Shown here: positions 46,701 to 64,000 of the stretch, one piece after another
Position numbering within the stretch: the stretch's first letter is position 1
How the letters are laid out: every line of letters starts with the position of its first letter
Origin: Polytrichum commune
Lineage: Eukaryota; Streptophyta; Polytrichopsida; Polytrichales; Polytrichaceae
NCBI GenBank assembly: GCA_950295325.1
Contig: OX485803.1
Coordinates: 26,341,554-26,405,553 of the forward strand
DNA: 64,000 nucleotides
Direction: 5' to 3'
The notes under the pieces: generated by a model
What the model saw: only the letters and a program-made list of their open reading frames with translations
What the model was told of the DNA's origin: nothing
The model's database searches: none
Translations under genes and position numbers: made by a program

Positions 46701-47787
46701 GTAAGTTTGATTCACATGCTGTTTTAGTTCCTGCTGAGAAGGTAGTACATTCCGTAAAACATCAAAAGTTTTCGTGCAATGGCTCCTGCTTAATCCAGAG
46801 ATTATATCATGTCTTTACTATCTCGGGAGATTTTCAGATGGAATGGGGGAGGGACCTGTGGAGGTACATTCAGTGGAATACCACAGGCCCTGGACTCTTC
46901 AATATTTAGTACAATATTTATGGTTCTCACGGGAAACATAAAAAATAGAAGGGTTCTAGTTAGATGACTCACTTGTTGTCTTCCTTCTGTTGGGCGTTGT
47001 TGATGAGTATTATAACAAGGACAACAACCACATTTGTTGTTGTTGTAGTAGTAGTGGTAGTGTTGGACGTAGTTAAAGCAGGCTCACGGGTCCGGTGTCA
47101 AAACCGTGAATGAATTCTTTATGGTCATGTCACTCTCTCCCTTTCTCTTTTGAATCTTCCTGCATTGGCGTGCATAAAGATCTTTAAAGCTTTTACACCT
47201 TCCAATGGCATTTAAAAGTCATATGGAATGAAAAGAATATATGATAAATGCTGATACATGCATTTTGGAGAGGATTTCTCTCTCTTAAGCTCTTGTAGTA
47301 GTTTGCCAATATATATTCCTTTACTGCCACATTCGCTGGAGACGGTAACCATAAGTGAAGTAGTACATTGTAAGCCTGTCTCTCGAGTCTGACAATATCT
47401 TTGCAATTTTCCATGACAGGAAACTCTTCATTGAACTAAGCTTCAACAACATCAGATCAAGTAGTGGATCGACGGTGCAGGCGCACCAATTCCCCTTTTT
47501 CTGCAAGCTGGGCTAGCTCCCAGGTAAAGTGTTACCCGGAAGCTGCCACAGATTTTTAGACAAGACTCTGCACTCAGATTACTGAATGATTGATTTATCT
47601 GCACTCGACAGTCCGAATAGTTTTGAGATTTGTGTATGGGTTCAACAGAGCGATCCATTATGGAAATGGAAACAAGAATGTTTTAAGATTGGAATCTTTA
47701 TAATGTATGGGCCCACTGATGAAGAAATTAATAGGCCATGTTTGGTAATCCCACATCCTCACAAGTTGTGATGATCATTCTTCTCAG
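43742..47787 (+). other. Putative ~4-kb intron in the 5' leader of the ICE1-like gene
   Basis: Bounded by GTAAGTA at 43742 and CAG at 47787. No transposon family from the left part of the window was recognised in it. It has an (ATC)n tract at about 46355-46383 and a (TTG)n-like tract near 47030-47045. No independent gene is recognisable. Confidence 0.35.
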
Positions 47788-47806
47788 AGCTCAACAACGT
47801 AAGATA

Positions 47807-50800
47807 ATGGCTTCACGGTCTAACTCCGAGATTTGGATGAGCGCTGCTGCTTCTGACATCAGGTGAGTGAAACATATCCTATGGTGAACTCTACTCTAAC
47901 CTACCCTTTTCGAAGAAGAGTTGCCTCATGAGTTTCCATAACATGCATATATACAATGGCAGCATCAGATAATTTCCGCTTCTTACATCTTACGTTCAAG
48001 TTTGACCTCCTGACATCACATGTGGATCCACAGCATGCCCTCCACTGCTCTTCTGGATCTCGAGGAGGAGTCATCGTGGAAGGCACCCACGTCTACCCAA
48101 AACACCTCAAACTGCGATATTCCAAAGGTCGGCAACCTGATTGACGTTGTTGCTATAAAAGTTTCTTCTTGTTTGACAAGAGATCATACAAAATGAAATC
48201 ATCAGGAGAATTTGATTCAGAGGATTTTTTAATAATTTTGTATTTATATATGAATTTGGTCATCATGTGCTGATGATGGTGCAGGGACAGGATCATCACA
48301 ACATAGAAGAGGAGTGGTACATGGCAGCCTCCCATGAGACATCCCTCATGGAGCTGTCCTACCCTTCCCCTTACGGCACAGCACCAGACACCCCTCGCTC
48401 CAGCTTCAATGTTAACATGCTTGACTCACCTCTCAGCTTCGACAACACCAACACCCTCCTCACCAACTTCCGCACCGCCCCCGCCCTGGGCATGGGCATG
48501 GAGAGCAATCGCATTCTGGATGAACTTGCAGGCAACAATGCAGGTGGCCAAGGCCTCCTCTCCAGCATTTCTTCAGGTAAATTTTTAATGCAGTGCAATG
48601 CAATTCCATTCCTTTCCACTTCTACATGTCATCAAGTTCAATGGTGATGTTTCATACCATACATTCCCTGTAAAAGCATCCAACTCAAGAAGATTTTGTG
48701 CTTGATTAGGTCACGCAGGTCATTTCTGCAGGTTATTTTGGCACTGCAATGCAGTGCACTTCCATTCAAGTTCTGCATGTCATCAAGAATGTTGATGATG
48801 TTGGATACCATAATATCCCCTGTAAATGCATCCAACTTGAGAAAAATTTGTGGTTTGTCAGGTCTATGTCATTTCTTCAGGTCATTTTGCAATGCATTTC
48901 CGTTCAATTTCTGCATGTCACCAACAATGTTGATGGCACATACATCCCCTGTTAATGCAAGGGTGGCTTACACCCGAGGCCTTAACCTGGATCCCATGGG
49001 AACAACGAGGTTAACCTTTCTAAGGCCGGAATAGCACTCGATGGGTAACCTTCCTAGCACTTGATTTCCGGTGCACCCTATCACCCAATCATAGTGGGGT
49101 ATCCAGGTGAACCGGATGTTTCCGGCCAATGCCAACTATGTGGGAACCTAGGGGCTTGCCCTTGGTGGAGAAAGAAGCCAGTAGTCTTGGGCCCCTCTAA
49201 TGCACGTTCTGGGATTACATATAGGCTTAGACAAACTTGAAGCAACACCTTTTTTTTTCCCCTGCAAATTGCATCTAACTCAAGCAGAATTTGGGGTTTA
49301 TTAGGTGTCATTTCTTCAGGTCATATTGCAATTCCATTTCTACATGTCAAGAATGTTGATGTTGCATACCATGCATTGCCTGTGCATGTCATTAACTGAA
49401 GAAGAATTTGTGGTCTGTTAACTAGGTGCAGGTGGGCATCAGGGTTATGGATCCACGGCTGGCCGAAGCTCATCCCTGGAAGTTTCCATGGACGCCTTCA
49501 GCGCAGGCTTACCCTCGAATTTCAACAGCAGGGTGATGAGCCCAGCTGCAGGGAACCTAACCACCGGTCGGCGATCCAATTTTATGCCCTTAGGAGCACC
49601 ACCGTCATTTTCAGATACATTTGCAACTCCAACATTAACCCGGGGTGATGCAGGCAACAACAAAGATCGGTCCAGGAATGACAACAACATCAACAACATC
49701 AACAACAGCATGGTTCCTTACCGGGTGACCAACAAACGCACGGAGAATTCTCTTCAGGGATCACAGACTCTTTTTCAGAAACGTGCAGCATCTCGGCACA
49801 CATCTAGTGTGTCAAGAGGAGGAGGAACAAAATCTCCCCCGAGGGTTATCACATCTGGGGCAACCAATAATGCATCCATGGAGATTCCTGGAGGCAACAA
49901 CAACAGCAACAATGTGATCAGCCCCAATGTCCAGAGCCTCAACTTGCAGACACCTGCTGGGGTTAAACAGCAGCATCATCATCAACATGGGGAAAACAAC
50001 TCTGGGTCGGATGACCCCATTGAAATGGGCCTGGATGGGGAGGACGATGATGGAAAAGATGATGATGATCTGGACGAGAGCGGTGATGGATCCGGTGGAC
50101 CGTATGAGGTTGAGGAGGGCGCTGGGAATGGGATGGAGAATCCTAAAGGGAAGGGAAAGAAGGGATTACCTGCGAAGAACCTCATGGCTGAGCGCAGGCG
50201 CCGCAAGAAACTCAATGACCGTTTGTACATGCTTCGCTCTGTCGTCCCCAAGATCACCAAGGTATGGAAAAAAATGCTCCGAGATGACATAGAATCTTGC
50301 GTGTTTGCTTGCACCATTGGACCTGTCAAGGTATGCAAAAATGCTCGACATGACATTGAATCTTGTGTATCTGCACCATTGGATCTGTCCACGTATGCAA
50401 AAATGGTCGACACGACAGATATTGAATCTTTTGTGTTTGCACCATTCAATTTGTCGAGGTGTGCAAAAATGCTCCACATGACATTGAATCTTGTGTGTAT
50501 GCACCATTGAATCTCATGTCAATTATGCAAAACAAGGTCGACATGACTTTAAATCTTGAGTGTGGTTGCATCATTGAATCTGTCGAGGTATGCAAATTTT
50601 CTCGACATGACGTTAAATCTTGTGGGTGTTTGAATTTTGCATCATTGGATCTGTCGAGGTATACAAAAATGCTCAACATAATCTTGTGTGTTTGCACCAT
50701 TAAATAAACTGTCAAAGGGCTGTTATACCGTGCGCCGTGCAAGGTGCGGGTATGTAAAAATGCTCGACATGACAGACATTGAATCTTGTGTGTTTTCTTG

Positions 50801-52461
50801 CACCATTGGGATCTGTCAAGGTTTATGTACAACCTCGCAACTGTTTTCTTCGATAGAGTGTATATTTACGGTTTTGGATTTATCAGTGCATTAACCCCCA
50901 AAAATTGTGGCAGATGGACCGGGCATCCATTTTGGGCGATGCAATTGAGTACCTGAAGGAGCTGTTACAGCGCATCGCTGACATTCATAATGAGCTTGAA
51001 GTCGCAAAGGTGGAGCATCGGTCACTGCCATCCAGCCCCTCTGGTGCCCTCACTCCAGGAACCACCCAAGTCTACCCGACGGTGAAGGAGGAGTGCCCCG
51101 TTCTGCCGAATCCCGAATCTCAGCCCCCTCGGGTAAGTTAAACATGTACTCAGATTCTGAGTTACATCTGAGCAGATTATGTAACAGACAATGAAATGCC
51201 AGTGTTTGCTGAAGAGAACAAAATGATCACCAATTTCGTCATAGCTAAATCTGAAAAGATTGATGGGAAATAGTTACATTCTGAGAATGCATACGTGAGT
51301 GACGAAGTAAAGTGGTGATGAATTCGTTTCACCAGAGAAAATATTCCTTGCAATCTAAGACTGATGCAGTACAGGCAAAGTGCTTGCATCCCGGGCTCGC
51401 CTTAACTCACCTAGTTGCTAAACATATAACCAAATTTTGGGTGGCATCTGAAAAGATTATGTAATTAACTAACTGCTGAATGATGATGATCCAATTCCAT
51501 TCACTGGATGCAAGTACTGAAGTTTGATGATCAATCTGCAGGTTGAAGTGAGGAAAAGAGAAGGGCAAGCTCTCAATATTCACATGTTTTGTGCCCGCCG
51601 ACCTGGGCTCCTCCTTTCCACAGTGAGGGCCCTAGATGCCCTGGGGCTGGATGTGCAACAGGCCGTCATCAGCTGCTTCAATGGCTTTGCTCTGGACCTC
51701 TTCCGAGCCGAGGTAAGGCTTTGCATGCCCCATTCTACACTCGTGTACCTTCCCTGTAACTTCACTCCAGTAGCCTGCCTCTCACCATGATTTATAAAAC
51801 ACATCTAGACAGTGATTTACAAGGTACAGTGCTCTGCTTCAAATAGACTCCTCTCACCATCAGAACTTCGCAACTCGTGGAAGGAGATATCTAATCTGAG
51901 CGCTTTAGATTTTGAGCATAAAAGTATTGAAGAGTCAGTAGATTTTGGTGCTTCAATTTAGTACGTCTGGACTGCCTGGCTCTCACCATTTACAAAACAC
52001 ATCTTTATAATGATTTACAAGTTGTGTTCTTCTTGGTAAAAATCCACTTACCATCAAAACTTCACAATTTGTGGAAGGAGACATCTAACCTGAGCACTTC
52101 AGATTTTGGGCATGAAAGTATAGAAGAGTCGTTAAATTTTGGTGCTTGAATCTAGTACATATGGATTGTTTTATGGATTGCCTGGCTCACATTGTGATTT
52201 ACAAGGTGTGTTCTTCTGGTAAAGAATCCACTCACCATCAAAACTTACAAGTTGTGGAAGAAATGTCTAAACTGAGCACGAAAGTACAAGAAGATTCAGC
52301 AAGTTTTGGTGCTTGAATTTAGTACTTACAGATCGTGTTGGGTATGTGGGAAGCAGCAAGCGAAAGACATGGAGGTTGGACCTGAGGAAATCAAGGCTGT
52401 TCTGCTACTCACAGCAGGATGCAGCAACGTCGGAGGAATGCACCCCAGCTTAATGCACTAA
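47807..52461 (+). CDS. ICE1: ICE1/SCREAM-type bHLH transcription factor (7 coding exons)
   Basis: The product is a nuclear bHLH factor of the ICE1/SCRM group, which in Arabidopsis partners SPCH/MUTE/FAMA in stomatal development and activates cold-response CBF genes. Coding exons are 47807-47862, 48034-48127, 48285-48576, 49432-50261, 50914-51132, 51542-51712 and 52354-52461. All join in frame, giving about 589 aa. The last acceptor could shift by 3 nt. Visible features are LFQKRAAS (aa ~261-268, the KRAAM motif), an acidic stretch (~341-377), and the basic region and first helix [19 protein letters not shown] (~394-424). The second helix [20 protein letters not shown] follows (425-453), then an ACT-like C-terminus (498-589, [31 protein letters not shown]). 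The intron splitting ..KITK from MDRAS is at the family's usual place. Two N-terminal introns are unusual. Seed-plant ICE1 is ~494 aa. The first two exons rest on frame and splice sites alone. Confidence 0.9.
48577..49431 (+). repeat. ICE1 intron 3: four ~150-bp tandem units, each with a copy of the donor region
   Basis: The exon end plus donor CATTTCTTCAG|GTAAAT at 48576/48577 is echoed at about 48731 (CATTTCTGCAG|GTTAT), 48880 (CATTTCTTCAG|GTCAT) and 49319 (CATTTCTTCAG|GTCAT). After each come TGCAATGCA-like sequence, TTCTGCATGTCA(T/C)CAA.AATGTTGATG, CCCTGTAAATGCATCCAAC and a GAAGAATTTGTGG-like block. Spacings are 155 and 149 bp, then 439 bp where a 299-bp element has been inserted. Confidence 0.75.
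48960..49258 (+). mobile_element. SINE-like retroposon inserted in ICE1 intron 3
   Basis: A 299-bp insertion inside a tandem unit. It begins AGGGTGGCTTACACCC and ends in a run of nine T. The target words CCCCTGTTAATGCA (before) and CCCCTGCAAATTGCA (after) look like a ~14-bp duplication, because other units have this word only once. It is related to the interrupted copy at 13028-13850. A terminal T run and a variable-length duplication fit a SINE-type retroposon, but pol III boxes are not clear. Confidence 0.45.
50262..50820 (+). repeat. ICE1 intron 4: eight degenerate ~62-90-bp units, each starting with a donor-like site
   Basis: Units start at about 50262, 50331, 50393, 50459, 50523, 50588, 50659 and 50750. 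Each reads approximately GTATGCAAAAATGCTCGACA, TGACATTGAATCTTGTGTG, TTTGCACCATTGGATCTGTC, then GAG. The first unit begins exactly at the exon border (ACCAAG|GTATGG), and later units keep CAAG|GTATGC- or GAG|GTATGC-type sequence. The intron interrupts the bHLH domain between the first helix/loop and the second helix. Reading frames stay open through several units on both strands because of the repetition. These are not separate genes. Confidence 0.8.
51713..52353 (+). repeat. ICE1 intron 6: three diverged ~170-200-bp tandem units
   Basis: Three units (about 51770-51965, 51966-52160, 52161-52330) share CTCACCAT.ATTTA.AAAACACATCT, GATTTACAAG, CCACT.ACCATCAAAACTT, GTGGAAGGAGA.ATCTAA, TGAGCAC.., and TTTTGGTGCTTGAATTTAGTAC. 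They do not obviously include the donor site. Intron 5 (51133-51541) has a weaker trace of the same process: CATCTGAGCAGATTATGTAA near 51159 and CATCTGAAAAGATTATGTAA near 51447. Confidence 0.65.
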
Positions 52462-53763
52462 ACAGTGCACACTTGCGTTTTGAGTAGTATTGCGGATCGC
52501 AGATCTCCCCTCTTTTCTTTTGAGCAGCATTAATAATGTGGAGCGTCACTTTTTGCAAACCATTCTCTCCAAAATCCCAGGCACAGTTTGCGCATCTTGC
52601 TTGCAATTTTGGATGCACGGGCGACCTTTTTGGAGCAGGTGCCCTAGTTTCAGTCGGGTAGCTAGCTCTTCGTCAACTACCTACAGAGTAACTTAGTTAA
52701 GTTACACGTAATTGCACCACTTTAGGCACCAAGAAGTCCCTGACTCTGAACAGTTTTGGGGTGCGAGTGTGGGCATAACATAAAGGATCAGGATAATAGG
52801 GTCAGTCAATAAGGAATAGTCAAGTACTACACAGCCTTTGGAAATCATTGAAGGCAGACTTCGTGTATGGATTGTGAAAATGTCATGTATCAAATTATCG
52901 TGGTTAAATGTGTATGTCCATTATAGCTATTCGAATCATGGGAGCTAGTATATTGGAGTCAGGCAAGGTAGGGGGGTTGTGCTACTACCTTGCTATAGGC
53001 ACAAGAGTATCGATGTATTAAGATACACTATGTTGCTCTTACCGCAGCAGCTTTTCTATTTAAATCTAACTTGCTACATCGTTGGGCGGCGTAGACTACT
53101 TTCTTTTTATATACATGTTTCCTTAACCCCTATACGCTCAAGCCTTCACATTCCATTTTGGGCATCTCCAGCACCAGTGCTGAATTTTTTTAATATGTAG
53201 GAATATAGAGTATGTTTTTTTCAAATCCAACCGTATGGATGTTAACTAGACTATCGCATATTCTTTCTCAGAAATTTTGAATTCAATCGGACCACATTTT
53301 CTAGGTCATATTAATATATGAACAAGGCTTTCATCCGGGGGGCAACTAAAGATAACTCTAAAAAAATTCGTTTCATAATCATTTTGATCTTGCCACAAAT
53401 TTTAGAGAGTTGACAACTTTGTCATAATATGTTATGTGAATGACAAATGAGCTACTTTGAAAAAATTGGTTTTGTTTTAGCAAATTTAGATGAAGTCCAT
53501 CGGACCATCACCCTTAAAGTTGGAGGGGGCTACGTGAGGTCGTTTTGGGAGATTTCCCTTTTTTTCATGAAGCAAGCAACATGTGCACTAAGTATTTTCC
53601 AAATTCATATGATCAAGTTGTGCACAATTGTCACCTTGTCCTAAAGAATAAATAAAAATCCCTACTCAATTTGGGCATCATATGTGAAAGATGTTGGCTC
53701 TTAAATTTGGCCCCTATATGTGACAACACATGGAACCGCCACCCAAAACAAGCAATGCCAACC
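52462..53763. other. ICE1 3' UTR and downstream intergenic sequence
   Basis: The 3' UTR starts here. Its end cannot be fixed by sequence alone. Downstream frames (52979-53200, 53447-53644) are not recognisable, and AT-richness rises again before the Harbinger element. Confidence 0.35.
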
Positions 53764-54361
53764 TAAGGGCACTTCACACACGAGCCAAGGGCCATGACCA
53801 TGGAATGGTGAGGGCCTTTGACTATCATCCAAAGGCCGTACCATGGGTGTTGGGCTACCCATTTTATGTGGGGACAGGTCCTTAAACATAGTGTGAAGAA
53901 ATAATGGACCATGTTGAGGTACCGTTGCATATTTTATTAGTGGGAAAAGAGGGGCAACCCTACCTCACTAGCTACATATCTTCATTCTCTTTTTTTTCAC
54001 TCTTTTTTTGAGTTTTACATCCGTGAGGAAGGAAAAGAGAGCACAATGGATCATTTTGAGAGAAGAGGGAAGATTCTTCTTGCATTGGCTTTATATTGGT
54101 GTTTGCACATGATTGTGCAACATGTGCTTGATATGTAAGCATGGGCATTCCACAGAGAATGGGAAAATGCCCTAATTTTGAGCATTTGCATTGATGGTAT
54201 GAATATGAGCGATCATAGTGTGTGAACATTTGAGAGAAATGTAGGGTTCATCGATAGATTATTATTGGGTTCTTTCACAGAAAAAAATGTTCAAATAAAG
54301 AATTTGTGTATGTCACAATACATTCATGTCATAACAAAGGTTTGGAACAAGAAATATTTCT

Positions 54362-54830
54362 TGTAAAGGTATATGGGATAGTTGAAAATACAATTTCAGA
54401 AACATTCAAATTCTTTGTAGATTGGTAATAATTCATTTGCAAGAGATTTTTGTGCAATTTCCAAATCCAACTCAATTTAGGGTTCTAGCCCAAGAATTAG
54501 AGGTCCTTCAAGGAATTCCTTACATTATAAGAGTATTCAATGGATCTCACATTCCAATTTTTGCACTTATAACTGGAGGAAAGAATTATTATTGTAAAAA
54601 ATCATTTCATTCGGCTTTATTGCAAGGTATAGTAGATACAAAATGTAAATTCTGGAATTATGAATTTGAATGGACAGAAAGTATGCACGATTGGACATAG
54701 TTTCAATTAACAAAAGTTGAAAGAAATTATATTAAAGGTAATTTTTTACCTTATAAGTTGATTGGAGATTGTGCATATCTAGTGTGGCCATGGATTTACA
54801 ACCCATTCAAAGGGTATACATAAAGTTTGG
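54362..54830 (+). pseudogene. PIF/Harbinger DDE transposase remnant
   Basis: The translation follows the DDE_Tnp_4 / HARBI1-like nuclease: VYGIVENTISETFKFFVDW, then IHLQEIFVQFPNPTQF, LQGIPYIIRVFNGSHIPIF, YYCKKSFHSALLQGIVDTK, FEWTESMHDWT, then FLPYKLIGDCAYLVWPW. The GSHIPI block normally reads DGTHIPI or DGSHIPI, and here the catalytic Asp is Asn. The GDxAY Asp is kept. Stops occur before IIHLQ and after MHDWT, and the C-terminal part with the last acidic residue is gone. It cannot encode active transposase. Confidence 0.75.
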
Positions 54831-54929
54831 AGGGTTATGAAGCAAATTGGAATTTCATTCAAAGTTCTACTTGTATGTATGTAGAACATGTCAAATATCA
54901 TATGTCAAAATCTTTATTAACTTGAGGGA

Positions 54930-55085
54930 ATGAACATTGTGATCTACACGAGCTCTAAGGTAGCCTATAACCAAGAGATCTCGAGTTCAATTCTCGGTCT
55001 CAACGAAAGACCTAAGTCTTCAATGGGATAAAAGGGACAAGAGGCAAAGGCCAATGTCTTTAAAAAGGCCCAATTGGTCTAATCT
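54930..55085 (+). mobile_element. SINE-like tRNA-derived insertion
   Basis: GAGTTCAATTCTCGG at about 54991 is a good tRNA T-arm/B-box look-alike, and CTCTAAGGTAGCC ~40 bp upstream sits where an A box would. A non-tRNA body follows (CAACGAAAGACCTAAGTC, AAGGGACAAGAGGCAAAGG). It lies between the two decayed genes of the Harbinger element. No clear poly-A tail or target duplication is seen. Confidence 0.4.
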
Positions 55086-55229
55086 ATATCTGATTTTTCG
55101 TATTTTTATTCAATTAATTATTTGCAAATGAACATCAATGAATCTAATGCACTAATTCTTTTTTTTTTCTTGCAAAAATTTTAAATTTTTCTTTCATCTC
55201 ATCGTGAATGGCTATGAGAGTTTTGATCT

Positions 55230-55620
55230 CATAACCTCATCATTTAATAGGGACCTCTTCTTCACCTTCCGAAACTCCCAACTCCACTTCATCTACTTTT
55301 TTTTATTATCTGTATTTCTTATGATTTTGAAGCTACTACCCTACCTTTTTTTTTGCCGATATCATCTTCTTTCCTAATATTATCTTGTGCCTCCCCTCTC
55401 ATGCTCATACCTCTACTACCCTCCACATTTTGCGACATTTGAATTTAAATCACTTTTTCATCTTCATCATTGAACAATTGAAAATTATTGAAATTCTTAT
55501 TTCCTAATGAGGGTCCATACAATCGGAATTGTGGTTGACTCCATAACATCCAAGGAGAATTTTGGCTTCATTGTTGGGTTTTGGAACCCCTCCCATCTTG
55601 CAAGAATTCTACCATTGAAG
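55230..55620 (-). pseudogene. Decayed second ORF of the Harbinger element
   Basis: On the minus strand the translation reads PWMLWSQPQFRLYGPSLGN KNFNNFQLFNDEDEKVI, then MSQNVEGSRGMSMRGEAQDN after a stop. This polar N-terminal style and its position beside a Harbinger transposase fit the accessory DNA-binding (Myb/SANT-like) ORF these elements carry. The trihelix part itself is not visible. The call rests mainly on context. Confidence 0.4.
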
Positions 55621-56067
55621 GAAAAAAAATTGCCAAAAAAATTCAATAAAAAAAATTGTTTAATTTAATCACACATATAACAAACTCCAAGAAATTCAAC
55701 TTCTAGGCATTTGGGAGGAACAACCATATGCCTCTTATTAACTAATCTACCCTAAAAAAAATTAATGTTAAAAAAAATATTAAAATAACTCTAGCAGCCA
55801 TTGACATATGTTTCACTGCCATGGTCTGCCGGAATTTGCGTCAAGCCTACCTCTTAGAGGTGGGCCTAACGCAAATTCCGGAAGATCATGCACCCTTATT
55901 CACAACCTACCATGTAGACTTTTCATCCACGAACTTGTCTTTGGACCTTTAGGCCTTCACCTCCTAATGTGAAGTGAACTTGGATGATCTCTGCATTTTT
56001 CGACTGATGAGAGCTCTTACATTGCCATGGTCATGGGCCTTCAACCTTGTGTGCGAAGTGGCCCTAA

Positions 56068-57600
56068 CAAAAAAATCCTACATGCTTGGAGTTTTAATAA
56101 CATGTAAAAACCAATGAGATTTTTATATGTTATTTTGGCTCACATTGTAGTGGGCACCAGCCTACACCAATATGTACTTTTTCATCCACGTAGATTGCCA
56201 CCTAGTAGGTTGCAAACCTTAGTAGAATATTAGGTGGCAACCCATTTATGGGTTGCTTAAGCATTCAATGGTTAATGATAAGTTAGATAACTCTTGTAGC
56301 CTAAATATGAGGTAGTTTCTCAGTTTGAGCATATTGATTTTTTGAAGTTGCCGGGGTATTTTATGTCACCTCAACAAAACCGACAAGGTCCACCTATTCA
56401 ATATATGTAACAACCCAACCATCTGCAATAACTTAATAATACTTGAGAACAATTTGACACAATCTAGTAGCTTGCCTAAAAAACAAGGGCTCTTTCTAGC
56501 CTACTATGACACTCAAGGCTTCACACACATGAATTTTGAACATTGAGGGGGCAACCCTCAAAGAACACATCCCAACTTGGCTTTACACATGCTATTGAAC
56601 CACCAATGTTTGTACCTAACATGTCTCAAACCAAGCATCCTCCTTGCAAGATTACACCTCCCCACCTTAACCATCACACCAACAATCAAGAACACTAAGG
56701 TACTAAGGCCTTAATGCATCACTTTAAGAAAAAAAATTGTTATTTTAGGAAGGCTAAGTAGCTTGGAATTTTTTAATTAAAAAAATCCATAGATTAGCAA
56801 ATCTATACAAAGTCTATAATTTTTTATTTAAAAAACGAATATTCATACACATCCTAGAGAATTTCTCAAAGTCATCTTAAGGAAAGAGCCTTTTACTTCA
56901 ACTAGGAAGGTCTATTGATGTTAGATTACTAAGTGAGAATCACCACAAAATTAACCTTATTGCATGTGAGGATCTTATGAAGGTGTTGTCCCCCTTTTGT
57001 GGATCACTTCTTACACCACCTTGTTGAGTGGATAGATCCCCAATTAGCCATTGTGATTGACCAAAGTTGGTGTTTTTAATAGTGTTCTTGCATCCTTCCT
57101 ACACCGCTATTATGAATGGCCAAAGTGGTGCTACTTTATACTTAATGTTATAGATGATTAATTGATTTTAACAATGACTTACTCGATGGCTTTGTTGTAC
57201 TCACTTGTTGACAACTTAAGGATTTAAAATAGGTGTCACCAAAAGAAAGGTGACACTTTAAGGCCTCAATACCTTAATGACATTCTATCCATCGTATCCA
57301 CATTATGCCATGACAAAGGCCCTGATGATGCAATACAAGCCAACAAAAACCAAACACCAAACACAAATTGATACCTTGTAAGATGAAGATTGGCTCTTCC
57401 ACCTAACCATAATCAGAGCCAACGTCTAAGGAGGTACAAGGGAGGTATTCACAATGTTTCCAATGAAACCCTCCATAACCAACACCACATCGTCCATAGC
57501 CGCCCATGCATGCATAGAACGAATACACATCATAACCCTTTGGTATCTCACCATGATCATGCTCAACAACCGCCAGAGCAAGAACAACCAAACTCTCTCC
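56068..57600. other. Intergenic, nothing recognised
   Basis: AT-rich, with no gene. Frames at 57390-57755 on both strands run through a simple-sequence tract and are artefacts. Confidence 0.35.
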
Positions 57601-57647
57601 CCCCCCCCAAAAGAAAAAGAAAAAGAAAAAGAAAAAGAAAAAAAGAC
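57601..57647. repeat. Poly-C followed by (AAAAAG)n microsatellite
   Basis: About nine C followed by about six AAAAAG-type units. The 80-120-aa frames overlapping it are products of the repeat. Confidence 0.7.
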
Positions 57648-57941
57648 CACCACATACACACACACCTTATTCATGTTCATGGGGGTCCGACCCTCACTTA
57701 TAGGGGTTCATGGGGTTGGGTGAGGATGACCTTAGATATATTTAAGAATGCCTAAAAATGAATACCACACTAGTTTTGAACACATTTTGAATGAATGAAC
57801 CCAAACAATTGAGTTTAAATAAATAATTTGAGCACATTGTACTTGTCATAGAATACATTCCAATGAATTCCAATGCACATAAATAATATGGCATGACCAC
57901 TAGGAGTGCAATCAGAGCACATGAGATGATCAATAGACTTT

Positions 57942-58148
57942 ATTGAAGGGGATCATGTACTTAAACATATGGGGACACATGTGAAGGTGACAAGGTTGAA
58001 AAGCCCATGACCAACATGCAATCAAAACAGAGGAGGTCATTGGTGGTATGTATTGAAGGGGACCATAATGTCTATGTACTTAATGTATGGGGACACGTGT
58101 GAAGGTGGTGCATTTTGAAAGGCCATGAACTAGCACATTCAAAACAAA
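57942..58148. repeat. Two-unit tandem duplication, ~110 bp
   Basis: ATTGAAGGGGATCATGTACT.. TATGGGGACACATGTGAAGG (57940s-58010) recurs as ATTGAAGGGGACCATAATG.. TATGGGGACACGTGTGAAGG (58052-58115). Each is followed by a GAAA.GCCATGA block. Non-coding. Confidence 0.6.
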
Positions 58149-58911
58149 ACACTCAAAACAAATAACCATTCCTAAGGAGATTTTCAACACAACACCACAC
58201 CCAAATTATCTTCAACATACAAATGGAATTTATGTCATTTCTTTTTATGAGAAGGGCCTCCAACCTCAACAAAGTGTTGAGCATGATCACGGCAATATCC
58301 TCTATCCAAGGTAGAATAGTTTGGCTCGTGAAGACATACGACAAATCTTGTTTTTTGAACAAGCTCAATACCACAATGCATGCAATAGATTGCTATAGAC
58401 CCTTTTATAGCCTTTATCAAAACTATAAATAAAGAAGATAGCCAAACATTTATCACCTTCTATATGAATATGATAAGATAATACAAAAAATAAGTCATTG
58501 TGGCGCATTTCAAATACAATTTACTGTGACTTATTTTTGCCACTCAAGCGTATGACATCTACCAACTTAGGCCTCAAATTCCCTTTTGTAGATCTTAGAG
58601 TTTTCCAAAAAAGAAAAGAAATTCATAGCAATCTTATTTTATTTGTTTATTTTGAATACTGGGTTTTGTACCCTTAACTAGGTGTGGTATCTCAACTCAT
58701 GGCATGACTCAATAAGTTCTCAAGTTTCATGACATATATAATAAGCCAACTTCCATAATAATTTGAATTGTTTTTGTGTAAGTTGCAGTTGTAAGTATCT
58801 AGGCAAGATTTAGAAACATAACACACAATTGTTGATGTTATTTATATTGGACATAAATACATTGAAAAATACCCCTCCTTTTAACATCAATATATTACTA
58901 CATTGTTCCAA
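58149..58911. other. Intergenic, nothing recognised
   Basis: Short frames on both strands. No family or repeat recognised. Confidence 0.35.
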
Positions 58912-58990
58912 GCATAACATAATTCAGATCCATAATAATGTTTTGTGGGACTAACAATATTCCATGTAATATTCCCGGATATTCCCCACA
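58912..58990. mobile_element. Palindromic MITE, left-half copy
   Basis: GCATAACATAATTCAGATCC, GTTTTGTGGGACTAACAATA, ATTCCATGTAATATTCCCGG and ATTCCCCAC match the left arm of 26680-26842. The right arm is absent. Confidence 0.45.
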
Positions 58991-59489
58991 GTGTGCACGA
59001 TCAACCTTAATTTATCATCTCACTTCTTACATTAGTGTTTTTTTCCACTCCTTACACTAAGCTTCAAAATGTCCAAGATTCATTTCAAAATAGTATTTGT
59101 ATTTACAAGTGGATTTCCGTTCACAACAACTACCAATTTGGAGTGCAACAAAAACATACCCCTCCCAAGTTGGTTGTTGATTGATTTCAATGGGTTCGAC
59201 TATAGTTTCTAACCCCAAACTAGGAGTTGGGCTAAATATGGATTGTTAAGGTATACATTGTTTCTATGTGTTTTCACTCTCATTATGGTTGGTGTCACAA
59301 AACTTTACACTTGACATATAGTGTTATATTTATAATCAAATCTAACAATATGCAAGTCTATAGGAGTTTATGTGGCATGAACCACTCAACCATGAACTCT
59401 TGAAAGGAGACTTGAGAGCAATATTATGAAATTCAAATGAATAATCTTTTGCTCCCCTCCTCTCCACTTCTATAGCTCCCCCTACGCCT

Positions 59490-59620
59490 TAGAAAACCAC
59501 ACTAAATGTTATATTAAATGTCACCAATTCTAATTATCTTGCTTAATACTAAACCGCTCGTGTAGTGTCACCAACACTAAGTGTAAACCCTAACATTATT
59601 TATCATTCCTTGTAAAAAAA
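59490..59620. repeat. Inverted mate of the repeat at 5535-5665
   Basis: Shares TGTCACCAATTCT.. TCTTGC, CGTGTAGTGTCA.CCA.ACTAA, TGTAAACC(C)TAACATTATT and TTCCTTGTAA with the complement of 5535-5665. Non-coding. Confidence 0.4.
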
Positions 59621-60586
59621 TTGGGTGTTATACATATACAATTCTGCAATTACTATCACTTACTAAGTGGATTTTCATTCAAATATTAATCATCCATGAC
59701 AATATTTCTATATAAAAAACTTTTGGATGCATAATATACCAAACTTAGTTTCAATAATTGGCACAAATTTCATCTAACTTTCAATCATCCATGACAATAC
59801 TTGTAAAGTTATTCACAAGAAGTGTTAGTACAAAAGGTACCACAACGACATACATACATATGATGCTAAATATAATATTTATTATGGAGTTCTTTGTATC
59901 TTAGTTTAGTTCCAATTTCACATTTGAAGCTTGCACATTACATGTGCATTATCTCAAGAGTAGAGTTCTTAGTGTAGGCTCTTCATGGACTTTCCTTCAT
60001 ACTCAAGATTAGATCCAAGCTTGAAGATTGGTTTCTCAATCTAGGAGGGATACAATCTAAATTGCATAACATCAACCTCCTTAATGTCACTCCTCTTAAA
60101 CCCCAAAATGCTAGGGAAAGGATATTCTCATTTTAAATTTCACTCCTTGTTGTCACATTTCCCTTCCTTATATCATGGATGTTATCATTTAAAAAAACCA
60201 ATAGAGAATTCAAACCACACACTCACATGCATCACATTGTCATCATTGTAATTATTGTCATTATTATAATGTTGATGATTTTGTGTTATTCCATAATGTC
60301 ACATGCTACACGAATTCTCTTTTATCACGCATCCATGTTAACACTACATAACTCCTTAATATCATGTGCACTTTGGTTGCCACAAGTATGATATTATAAA
60401 GTTTAAAGTGTAATTTCTTGAGTGAAGACAATCGAGATTTGACAAGAAAATGATGACACTTTAGTGCCACTTCATTTGTCTATAGCTTGGACCCTAGTGT
60501 AAACTCCTTGGGTCCAAAATTTGGCACTCAACCAATAGGATCGCTCGATTTTGGAGTTTCTTTGGTCTTCGACACGAGTGTATACG
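59621..60586. other. Intergenic, nothing recognised
   Basis: A 70-aa frame at 60179-60391 contains an ATT/ATC-rich tract and is not a known protein. Nothing else recognised. Confidence 0.35.
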
Positions 60587-60746
60587 CACCCTTAAGTTAA
60601 TGCAATCCTCACTACACCCACCCTTAAGTTAGTGCAACCCTCACTAAACCCACCCTTAAGTTAGTGCAACCCTCACTACACTCACCCTTAAGTTAGTGCA
60701 ACCCTCACTAAAACCACCCTTAAGTTAGTGCAACCCTCACTAAACT
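60587..60746. repeat. 5 x 32-bp tandem repeat upstream of SMG1
   Basis: Five contiguous units start at 60587, 60619, 60651, 60683 and 60715. Consensus CACCCTTAAGTTAGTGCAAC then CCTCACTAAACC, with only a few substitutions between units. It ends ~90 bp before the TATA-like site and ~290 bp before the SMG1 start codon, so it is in the promoter. Confidence 0.9.
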
Positions 60747-60835
60747 CTTCCCAAATAGTATCCGTGACATCAAACACACACCGTAAACAGTGCAAGAGCA
60801 GCAACGCAAGAACACCAAAACAGGACTCTTGTCGC

Positions 60836-60842
60836 TATAAAG
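60836..60842 (+). promoter_or_regulatory. TATA-like box for SMG1
   Basis: TATAAAG preceded by a GC-flanked context (GTCGC). It lies ~200 bp before the start codon and would place transcription start near 60868, just ahead of the upstream ORF. Confidence 0.35.
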
Positions 60843-60896
60843 CCTCAAAATCAAGCCATCGCAGATTCCCGAAGATTCTCGTATTCCCAAACCCTA

Positions 60897-61022
60897 ATGC
60901 GCATTTCGGGAACCGGAAGTTGGTTCGAGATCGATCGGAAAGGGTTTGCAGCATCGGTAGGGTGCACAGAGAGAGGGAGGGACACAGAACAGATGGAGAA
61001 GATTGCCATGGCTGATGCATGA
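60897..61022 (+). other. Upstream ORF in the SMG1 leader (41 codons)
   Basis: ATG at 60897 opens a 41-codon frame ending in TGA at 61020-61022. It also contains an in-frame ATG at 60993 that alone gives a nine-codon peptide (MEKIAMADA). The stop lies 16 nt before the main ATG at 61039. It is not a conserved protein. Its interest is regulatory. Whether the longer version is used depends on the transcription start. Confidence 0.45.
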
Positions 61023-61038
61023 GGTGTAATTGAGCGCC

Positions 61039-64000
61039 ATGGCGTTGTTGCAGCAACAGCAACAGCAGCAAGCTGCGTGGCTGAAGTTGTTGGATTCAGC
61101 TGTGGCATCAGCATCCACGTCACCCGGAGATGAACCAACACGGTCATCCGCTGCCGCTGCCGAGTCCATGCACGGCCTTAGCGGTGCCCTGGCCGGACTC
61201 CGGGAATTTCTTGCCTCAGGCAAGCTCAAACCTCACATTCTCAATTCTCAATTCTCCTCTCCTCTGTGCTTGATCGAATAAATTTCTGTTCATATCCTCT
61301 CCACCATCGTACAATATATTGGTAACTCCATGAATTTATGCGCAAGAGGCACAGTCTTCAGGGGCAGCAATCAAGTGAATTATCAATTTGAGTTTGATGC
61401 TTATTCACTATTAGGAAGGGGTGTACAGTAAAATATCATTTCCAGCTGGTTAATTCTAAGGAGCATGATAACCTAAGAAAAATGCTGCACTCTGTTTGAT
61501 TTAAGGCAGTGCCATTCAGAGGAAAATCTTGCCTCAGGCAAAAGTACACCTCAAATTCTCAGCTTTCCTCTCCTCTTTGCTTGATTGAAGAAATTCTTGT
61601 TCATGACCTTACTGTCATAATACTTTGTACTATGTATTGGTAACTCCATGAATTTATGTGCAAGTTTCTCGGTCTCCAGGGGCTGCAATTAAGTATTTAT
61701 CATCAATTTCTTTTCCTATGGATCTAGGGGTCCAGTTTGATGCTTATTGACTACCAGGGAGGATTATACAGTGCATCATGTCTAGCTGTTTCAAGGTCTA
61801 CAATCAGGAGAAAGCTGTTTAAACCTAAGGAGCTTGATAACCTAAGGAATATGCTGCTCTCTTCTTGATTAAAGGAAATGCCATTCAGAGCCTTGTGTTC
61901 ATGGTCTTTTGTAGCATGTTATAATGAATACAAAAATAGAAAAGAGAATTTGATAGATTTATGCACTTGATTCGCAGTGTCCAAGATAAATTTCATGAGG
62001 ATATGAGCTAGTATTTGAGAACACAGGTGCCGAAATCAATTAAATTCTCCTCCTTACGGATCCGAGGGTTTGTTTGATGCTGATCAACTGTGAGTGAGAG
62101 GTTTTCCAGTAATTCATCAGCTCCATCTGTTTTAAGTGTTACAAAGGGTGCAGCAGAAAGCTCTTAAACCTAGGTGTAAGAAATGTGAAATCTTCTTGGC
62201 TACTTCTACTGGCAAGTATGGTGATGTATTGTTCCTCATGTGGATACTGCTCTGTGTAGGTGATGGCACAGCTGCAGAACCATTTGTTCAACACATTCTT
62301 GAAACGTGCCGAGTGCTTCTTGAAAACGAGATGCCTCTTTTGGAGCCATTGCTTGGTGTCCTTGCAGTTTGTGGGAGTCAATTCAGTCATTGCCTTGAGC
62401 CATACTTTGTTGACATAGTGGACCTACTTCTCGGTTGGGCACTTGACCCTGAACATCCTGAGGGTGACCGCAGGCTCATCGTTGAGAGCTTCCTTAAGTT
62501 TCAACCAATGTGGGCAAGGAATCCTCAATTTCCCTTGACTCTGATGACTAATTTTCTTGGCGACATGGAGAAGATAGCACAAGATCACACGTCTCCTACG
62601 TTGCAGCAGCTCCATCGGCTGCTTGCACTTGCATCATGCTTTGTGGCAGTCATGCAAGCTACAGCTTTAGGCCTGGAAGATGCTTCATCCAAGCCATTTT
62701 CCTCATCAACCACTCAACCATCGCTTGCTGATTCTTCTCTGGCATCTGAAACTGAGCAGCATATAGATAGAATGGATTACATGGTTGGTTCTGCCAAGGG
62801 GATGTTACCTCGTGTGATCACATGCTTCAAAACTTTAGTTCAGAAGTTTCAGAATTTCAGATGGCTGAATGAGGCATTAAGGTGTTTGCAACTCTTTGCC
62901 GAAGTTTTGAAGGAGAGTTTTGCCGAGTTCTACATTCCTGTTCTCAATATCCTGTTTCAGGGCTTGGGGATTGATGTGGAGAGACAGGTTTGGAAGGAGG
63001 TCGCCTCTGTGGGTCTTACTTTGGCACCAGCACCAGCTGCATTGAACATGCAACAGGTTTGATTCGTTTTCAAACCTACAGTTCACAAACTGATTATATT
63101 AGGAGTATGGCTTCCATCACTTGATTTTCTGTCATACTCTTACTAGTCTTATGATGTGAGCAACACATCATAGCTGGAATGGTTTGTTAGGCATTTTGTG
63201 TGCGTTGATATGATGGGACCGGTGCAGCTGTATTTCACAGGTTCAAGTCATCTTGCAAGTCAATATGAGGATGATCACATGCCAAAGACATAAACTTCCT
63301 GTTAAGGCAGTTTCTAAGCTTGTAGGGTGCTCATCTCCTTTTCCGATTTTACGCCTGCATCCAAGTCGCACTGTGAGAGGTAGACAAAAGTCCTCCAATA
63401 TGAATCTATGGCCTGCAAGTTTCTTTTCTTGTTGTGCTATTATGAAATGCCTGATTCTGCGTATTTTGATTAATCTTGGACCACAATTGACATCAGCTTG
63501 TTACTTGCAGGTGCAGTTGCTGCCACTTTTATGCTTCTGCTACAGCATGGCTCAGATGAAGTTGCCACCGAAGCAAGAAGAAATTTAATGGAGGAGCTAG
63601 AGAGCTTTAAGGAAAGGAAATTTGGAACCTTTCAGGACAGGGCATGGTCTCAGAAGGACAGCAGGATAGAACCTGAACTTGATGTCAGAAGTATCTCAGA
63701 GCAAGGTGTGGCTGAACGTGAAGTCAATGCACTATTTAGATTCAATTTGATGGTACTACTTTGTAGTTCTTTTCTTACAGGGACCGGTGCTTTGGTGGCT
63801 CCATCAGTGCTGCAGAGGAACGAGTTGTCTTTTACTGACAAGAGGGTAAACTCCTTGATACCAAGGTCGATTGAGCTCAAGCGCCTTATCTTGGAGAAGC
63901 TCAATCCTTTTCAGGACCCATTGCAGTGGGATCCTAATCTGCAATTGGTTTTGTGGCAAGCCCTGCTTTTGAATTGCACTATTGGCAGCTTTGTTGATTT
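61039..64000 (+). CDS. SMG1: SMG1, PI3K-like protein kinase of nonsense-mediated decay (5' part; continues past window)
   Basis: SMG1 phosphorylates UPF1 in nonsense-mediated mRNA decay. Exons in the window are 61039-61219, 62260-63056, 63241-63379, 63511-63705 and 63781 onward. All join in frame and give the first ~510 residues. The family is shown by N-terminal HEAT-type segments matching plant SMG1: GLREFLASG|DGTAAEPFVQ, HFVDIVDLLLGWAL-like FVDIVDLLLGWALDPEHPEG, LRLHPSRTVR|GAVAATFMLLLQHG, EARRNLMEELESFK and LILEKLNPFQDPLQW. The start is a glutamine-rich MALLQQQQQQQAAW. The kinase and FATC domains of this >3000-aa protein lie beyond the window. The first intron begins with GC (TCAG|GCAAGC), the frame leaving no GT alternative. 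An upstream ORF precedes the start. Arabidopsis lacks SMG1, while most other plants have it. Confidence 0.88.
61220..62259 (+). repeat. SMG1 intron 1 (GC-AG): three tandem ~320-bp units, second one repeating the donor
   Basis: The exon end and donor TTGCCTCAG|GCAAGCTC at 61219/61220 recur 318 bp later as TTGCCTCAG|GCAAAAGT (about 61529-61545), followed by the same order of blocks. These are CACCTCA.ATTCTCA, CTCCTCT.TGCTTGAT, TTGGTAACTCCATGAATTTATG, CCAGGGGC.GCAAT, TTTGATGCTTATT and ATGCCATTCAGAG. A third unit (about 61892-62170) lacks the donor word but keeps AATTTATGCAC.., TTTGATGCTGATCAACT and CTCTTAAACCTAGG. Intron 1040 bp. Confidence 0.75.

Follow-up and report, generated by a model that had tools for sequence, protein, structure and literature searches.

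Tandem arrays across splice donors in long introns of Polytrichum commune

ICE1, SMG1 and their intronic arrays

A stretch of 64,000 nucleotides of the Polytrichum commune genome (GenBank assembly GCA_950295325.1, contig OX485803.1, positions 26,341,554 to 26,405,553 of the forward strand), hereafter the window, carries two genes with tandem arrays in their introns (Table 1). The genes had been named ICE1 and SMG1 in an earlier sequence-only reading, and both names were borne out, the first by a Pfam HLH domain together with a plant bHLH ACT-like domain, the second by weak PDB matches to SMG1, to which the spliced N-terminus aligns from residue 57 on. The N-terminal 326 residues of SMG1 gave no match in Pfam. 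Exon/intron borders in both genes were set by frame continuity of the flanking exons. The numbers of ICE1 introns 3-6 follow the sequence-only reading, and ICE1 was checked only from the exon at ~48276 onward.

Table 1. Introns and tandem arrays of ICE1 and SMG1 in the window (positions in the window; the vertical bar marks the splice junction)
Feature	Position	Strand	Description
ICE1 intron 3	48577..49431	+	855 nt; donor CAG|GTAAAT, acceptor GTGCAG|GTGGG; from flanking-exon frame and gene finder
Intron 3 first tandem unit	48566..48720	+	last 11 nt of exon, donor and intron head; from self-alignment
Intron 3 further units	48721..48959	+	from self-alignment
Intron 3 dispersed SINE-like insertion	48960..49257	+	interrupts the array, not a tandem unit; end 49257 placed by eye
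Intron 3 last unit	49258..49418	+	copy of exon tail and donor at +744, CTTCAG|GTCATA (by eye)
ICE1 intron 4	50262..50913	+	652 nt; donor AAG|GTATGG; splits the bHLH domain between KITK and MDRA
Intron 4 tandem array	50262..50820	+	eight units of 57-71 nt; array opens with the donor G at 50262
ICE1 intron 5	51133..51541	+	409 nt; single 46-nt repeat pair from +7, weak (E 2e-7)
ICE1 intron 6	51713..52356	+	acceptor placed manually, to within 3 nt
Intron 6 tandem array	51773-52339	+	units of ~200 nt; ends ~16 nt before the acceptor
SMG1 intron 1	61220..62259	+	1040 nt; GC donor CAG|GCAAGC; from frame
SMG1 intron 1 tandem array	61203..61890	+	two units of ~318 nt

In ICE1 intron 3, segment 48566-48830 aligns with 48721-48959 at an offset of 155 (73% identity, E 1e-38), and the repeat starts 11 nt within the exon, which ends at 48576. 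Besides the copy in the last unit, the exon tail and donor recur at +156 (CTGCAG|GTTATT) and, as placed by eye, at +305 (CTTCAG|GTCATT), and the array stops 13 nt short of the acceptor. The insertion that interrupts this array (48960-49250) returned at least 44 genome matches on many contigs, with the best 40 of 1468 candidates scored. By eye the element is SINE-like: its 3' end carries a run of T, and a similar short sequence occurs at each end.

The later units of the ICE1 intron 4 array start at 50331, 50393, 50459, 50523, 50588, 50659 and 50750, with a gap before the last, and give self-alignment offsets of 129, 195, 261, 326 and others; the alignment extends just 2-3 nt into the exon. Beyond the true donor, the open frame of the preceding exon (49422-50510) continues for over 80 codons and reaches the fourth repeat unit, and the gene finder described below extended the exon beyond the true donor into the array, a warning that gene finders will over-extend such exons. 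An ICE1-like bHLH paralogue (L009, at G000:C1 ~63.93 Mb) seems by eye to hold a GC-donor intron (AAAG|GCAAGG) at the same bHLH position; telomere-like TTTAGGG repeats in a later intron and a long inverted repeat in another were also seen by eye in this locus.

The suggestion that ICE1 introns 5 and 6 are likewise tandemly built held for intron 6, where 51773-52172 aligns with 51974-52339 (E 2e-64) from a start 61 nt inside the intron. For intron 5 it was marginal, with no repeat at E 1e-4 in the 17-kb self-comparison (47000-64000). In SMG1 intron 1, 61203-61521 aligns with 61521-61890 (67%, E 7e-40), the repeat starting 17 nt inside exon 1, which ends at 61219; the donor copy at 61538, CAG|GCAAAA, keeps the GC of the true donor. 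SMG1 has an array in one of 23 predicted introns and none in its longest intron (1214 nt), and the claim that the pattern appears in the majority of long introns in the two genes does not hold for this one.

The sequence-only reading had also proposed that the first unit starts at or spans the exon/intron border in three introns, and that later units copy the exon end and donor. The border is spanned in ICE1 intron 3 and SMG1 intron 1 (by 11 and 17 nt), and both introns carry such copies. In ICE1 intron 4 the first unit begins at the GT, and copying of the exon end was not demonstrated beyond the splice consensus.

Elsewhere in the window, positions 48000-64000 gave no match in Rfam. A look-alike of a tRNA-derived SINE, with internal-promoter-like motifs recognised by eye, lies at ~54950-55080, and a 32-nt unit occurs five times (92% match) at 60587-60745, upstream of the SMG1 start and outside introns.

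Arrays and splice sites in the intron sample

The source genome is 408 Mb, and the studied subset ~310 kb. A small splice-aware gene finder was trained on the window and 26 fetched loci (312,000 bases; ~310 kb after joining) and returned 26 genes and 224 introns, with splice profiles of the usual kind. The loci are non-random, 17 regions lying around helicase matches and 6 around kinesin matches (from searches giving 103, 147 and 20 matches), and the gene models are predictions from the sequence of this one genome. Repeats were sought in 223 introns, the borders of three being corrected by hand afterwards; the border of ICE1 intron 4 stood one base off in the exon-only, junction-score and 26-gene self-comparison tests described below.

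Repeats at E<1e-3 were found in 19 of the 223 introns, in 18 of the 105 introns of at least 300 nt and in 15 of the 55 introns of at least 600 nt. Length-matched intergenic segments contained repeats in 19 of 300 cases at the lower length limit and in 12 of 151 at the higher, which gives Fisher P values of 0.0025 and 0.0007, respectively. With the array introns of ICE1 and SMG1 left out, the comparison becomes 13/100 versus 19/300 (P 0.053) and, for at least 600 nt, 11/51 versus 12/151 (P 0.019), and introns then exceed intergenic DNA in arrays by a weak margin. The tandem arrays are genuine, yet only a minority of long introns has them. They do not amount to the general mode of intron lengthening that had been suggested, given the count of 15 in 55 and the dispersed insertion that ICE1 intron 3 also contains.

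Intronic minisatellites and tandem repeats are built of head-to-tail diverged units inside introns, and the arrays found here likewise have at least two diverged copies head to tail. Unlike in such minisatellites, the first unit can start in coding sequence and copy the donor, and acceptors are uncrossed in the sample. Array introns numbered 18 at E<1e-4, the difference from 19 being a weak match in L027. The 17 accepted arrays leave out one of these 18, the first predicted intron of a DHQ-SDH gene (joined contig, minus strand, donor 88686), in which the array reaches the exon but the exon looks spurious. This array near 88686 (in the joined window plus L016-L018, minus strand; offsets ~145 and 312 nt) lies just upstream of DHQ-SDH, possibly in a 5' UTR intron of that gene.

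The same anatomy recurs in introns that the sequence-only reading had not seen, namely in four of 218 examined introns, the five repeat introns of ICE1 and SMG1 being set aside. A DDX21-like helicase has its donor copied together with 64 nt of exon, the border lying within GRARTGQ|GKT, and in DHQ-SDH, 38 nt of exon are copied into the intron (86% over 44 nt). The two junctions are fixed by unbroken alignment to the solved homologues 6l5m and 2gpt, respectively. Two paralogous kinesins (L040 and L041) have 46 and 13 nt of exon copied, with borders set by prediction.

When each of the 26 predicted genes was compared with itself (offsets up to 3000, E<1e-4), matches of mixed exon and intron content took one arrangement only: all run from an exon tail through the donor into the intron and are copied into the same intron. 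No copy running from an intron through the acceptor into an exon was found in this comparison, and the single exon-exon pair was in L033. The donor-copy segments lie wholly within the same predicted intron, as judged by gene prediction only. Among the 17 arrays, the donor is crossed in six and the acceptor in none, where random placement expects 1.8-4.8 each. The six donor-crossing arrays lie in six introns, each in a different gene; a further array, that of ICE1 intron 4, starts exactly at the donor.

In an exon-only test, exonic sequence of up to 45 nt was searched in the adjoining intron, with neighbouring introns as controls. At z>5, four of 217 exon tails and none of 218 exon heads were recovered, against 0/199 and 1/192 in the controls; at z>3, the counts were six tails and one head, with three and four in the controls. 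The four tails belong to L040, DHQ-SDH, the doubtful first DHQ-SDH exon and SMG1, two of the four being both sound and outside the genes of the sequence-only reading. The helicase reached a z of 3.7.

Junction-through scores for ICE1 intron 3, ICE1 intron 4 and SMG1 intron 1 were 35, 35 and 33, respectively, and draws from random introns (40 for each) gave means of 0.8-3.6 and maxima of 11-15. Over 216 donors, scores of 30-57 were obtained for seven cases (ICE1 introns 3 and 4, SMG1, L040, L041, L029 and the doubtful DHQ exon), the next listed score being 18, and over 217 acceptors no score exceeded 17 among the 14 listed. At z>5 the counts were 13/216 donors and 3/217 acceptors; several of these z values are inflated by a null spread near zero, and total scores were used instead. 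The DHQ-SDH donor at 87716 fails the junction-through rule, its match stopping at the donor.

The probability of six donor crossings in 17 arrays under random placement is 0.0007-0.04 at an exon margin of 10-30 nt and 0.18-0.35 at 60-100 nt. For no acceptor crossing in 17 it is 0.003-0.056 over the same margins, in an order opposite to that of the donor values. The 12 arrays outside ICE1 and SMG1 comprise four donor crossings (P 0.005-0.39) and no acceptor crossing (P 0.02-0.15). By arithmetic, a two-sided sign test on four versus none gives 0.125, and on five versus none, with the doubtful DHQ intron included, 0.0625. The donor crossings thus exceed random expectation at the 10-30 nt margins and not at 60-100 nt.

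Nine of the 17 arrays start in the interval from 64 nt upstream of the donor, within the exon, to intron +10; the other eight start 50-636 nt into the intron. A duplication mode aimed at donors, which the sequence-only reading implied and which could act for instance through breaks or hybrids forming at the 5' splice site, would explain the first group, the excess at narrow margins and the array of ICE1 intron 4 that begins at the GT. It is nonetheless improbable, since the second group starts well within introns, the exonic starts are spread over 2-64 nt upstream and indicate no fixed site, and the excess is gone at margins of 60-100 nt. The pattern of random-placement probabilities for the two kinds of crossing is suggestive of donors being tolerated and acceptors avoided, rather than of donors being targeted.

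Chance in a small sample, acting on ordinary local tandem repeats unrelated to splicing, is a somewhat doubtful explanation of the donor/acceptor pattern. It fits the donor crossings, which lie within random expectation at the 60-100 nt margins, the P of 0.02-0.15 for zero acceptor crossings in the 12 arrays outside ICE1 and SMG1, and the presence of such arrays in intergenic DNA as well (19 of 300 segments). The lack of any acceptor crossing, both in the 17 arrays and in the 26-gene self-comparison, argues against it, as does the asymmetry of tails and heads in the exon-only test.

Origin and fate of the duplicated segments

Long introns are often ascribed to transposons, and some long introns here contain locally copied sequence, including coding sequence and splice donors. 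Genome searches with the units of ICE1 introns 3, 4 and 6 and SMG1 intron 1 matched their own locus only, at a limited sensitivity: the ICE1 intron 3 query missed even the adjacent copies and returned its own place only. Occurrence at many unrelated loci, as expected of a transposon, was found for the 48960-49250 insertion and not for these four units, whose transposon origin is unsupported, with own-locus matches only in a search that missed even neighbouring copies. At that sensitivity, the proposal that this growth is distinct from transposon-driven growth is supported for the four units; in ICE1 intron 3 a dispersed insertion is present too. That insertion is what speaks for transposons or satellites having come to abut donors by accident. 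Such an origin of the arrays is extremely improbable in view of the own-locus matches of the four units searched and of the copies in DHQ-SDH, a kinesin and a helicase, which contain 38-64 nt of their own coding sequence.

The two kinesins L040 and L041 have seven corresponding introns, paired by place in the protein. One of these measures 172 nt without repeats in one gene and 645 nt in the other, where it has an array of 122-nt period (positions 50-616). The array can account for the difference in length, and it probably represents growth rather than loss. At E 0.01, no sequence is common to the two genes in six of the seven corresponding introns; in the other one, 27 nt match on opposite strands (E 0.003). 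The donor-spanning arrays of L040 and L041 show no homology to each other at E 0.01.

The best reading of these data, to which we give even weight for and against, is random local tandem duplication filtered by splicing. Short gene segments (~60-350 nt) would occasionally be duplicated head to tail at random positions, and a splicing filter would determine which duplications persist. Duplication of a segment confined to an intron, or of one reaching from an exon end through the donor into the intron, would leave the first donor in use and the mRNA unchanged; a donor-side event would give a longer intron carrying a decoy exon end and donor. Where the segment crosses an acceptor, the upstream acceptor copy would be transcribed first and would tend to be used, and the duplication would be lost because this copy puts extra sequence into the mRNA. 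We infer that the plant uses the first donor and that the array is the derived state. The asymmetry would be made by selection against acceptor-side duplications, and it would presumably extend genome-wide. A broader reading, held only tentatively, is that the side crossed decides the fate of a duplication, with donor-side duplications lengthening introns silently, decoy exon ends and donors being left behind in rows, and acceptor-side ones being purged or giving new introns.

Intron gain by tandem duplication has already been published, and the account in PMC4974935 includes a potato RdRp case in which the duplicated segment crosses the acceptor side, taking in the end of the intron and the start of the exon, and gives rise to a new intron; an 83-bp tandem duplication within an intron is also mentioned there. 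The arrays described here resemble this process in that an exon/intron border is crossed and splice signals are inherited from the parent intron. They are unlike the potato example, as given there, in that the donor side is crossed and an existing intron becomes longer, with no new intron predicted. Also related are the [D] stwintrons of Lipomyces, for which PMC7138796 proposes donor duplications of 4-7 nt that lead to nested introns. A donor duplicated within an existing intron is found in both systems. Unlike in the stwintrons as described there, the units here are ~60-350 nt, often in several copies, and are known as sequence only.

In human cells, the upstream 5' splice site is tethered to RNA polymerase II (PMC8316553). 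Such tethering, a mechanism of splicing and not of intron growth, offers a reason why the first-transcribed donor might stay in use, and by analogy it is a possible cause of the asymmetry. Donor-side lengthening matches neither tandem-duplication intron gain nor stwintrons exactly, and no recognised description of it was found in the open-access literature searched; it is a new combination of known ingredients.

If the asymmetry holds, it would link the evolution of intron length to the sequence of splice-site recognition, in a form that can be counted in any annotated genome. Genome-wide, it would constitute a fossil record of the splice site that the cell picks first. If the broader reading is true, the donor/acceptor ratio of junction-crossing repeats would be a sequence-only readout of splicing in which the first-transcribed site wins, and donor-side arrays would form a pool of alternative donors and ratchet points, as in ICE1 introns 3 and 4.

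Decoy donors

The decoy donors were partly listed by eye, and 17 were scored, the ICE1 intron 4 unit without GT being unlisted. GT or GC is retained in 17 of 18 copies, this unit being the exception. Donor scores of the 17 decoys range over 0.6-7.0, versus 3.3-7.5 for true donors. Of the 16 decoys evaluated, 15 would shift the frame or introduce a stop if used. The remaining one, at +70 in ICE1 intron 4, scores 7.0 versus 6.9 for the true donor, and its use would lengthen the bHLH domain between KITK and MDRA by 69 nt, or 23 open codons. In ICE1 intron 3, all three copies score well both as acceptor (6.7-7.9, the true median being 6.3) and as donor (4.2-6.3). Acceptor scores are mediocre or poor for the copies in SMG1, the helicase, DHQ-SDH and the kinesins.

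These scores bear on whether the copied junctions are retained for function, as recursive (ratchet) splice points or as alternative donors. The dual scores in ICE1 intron 3 and the strong in-frame decoy of ICE1 intron 4 would suit such a role. It is nevertheless distinctly improbable, more so than a mode aimed at donors: acceptor scores above 5 combined with donor scores above 4 are not unusual among intronic AG|GT sites (39 of 337), good acceptor scores are missing from the copies in the other genes, almost all decoys would give a stop or a frameshift, and GT has been lost in one ICE1 intron 4 unit. All eight aligned copies retain the donor dinucleotide, versus 61% retention over all dinucleotides (P ~0.02 by arithmetic), in an exploratory count that excludes ICE1 intron 4 and takes two alignments each from L040 and L041; this retention, which also favours function, may be read as a weak hint of it.
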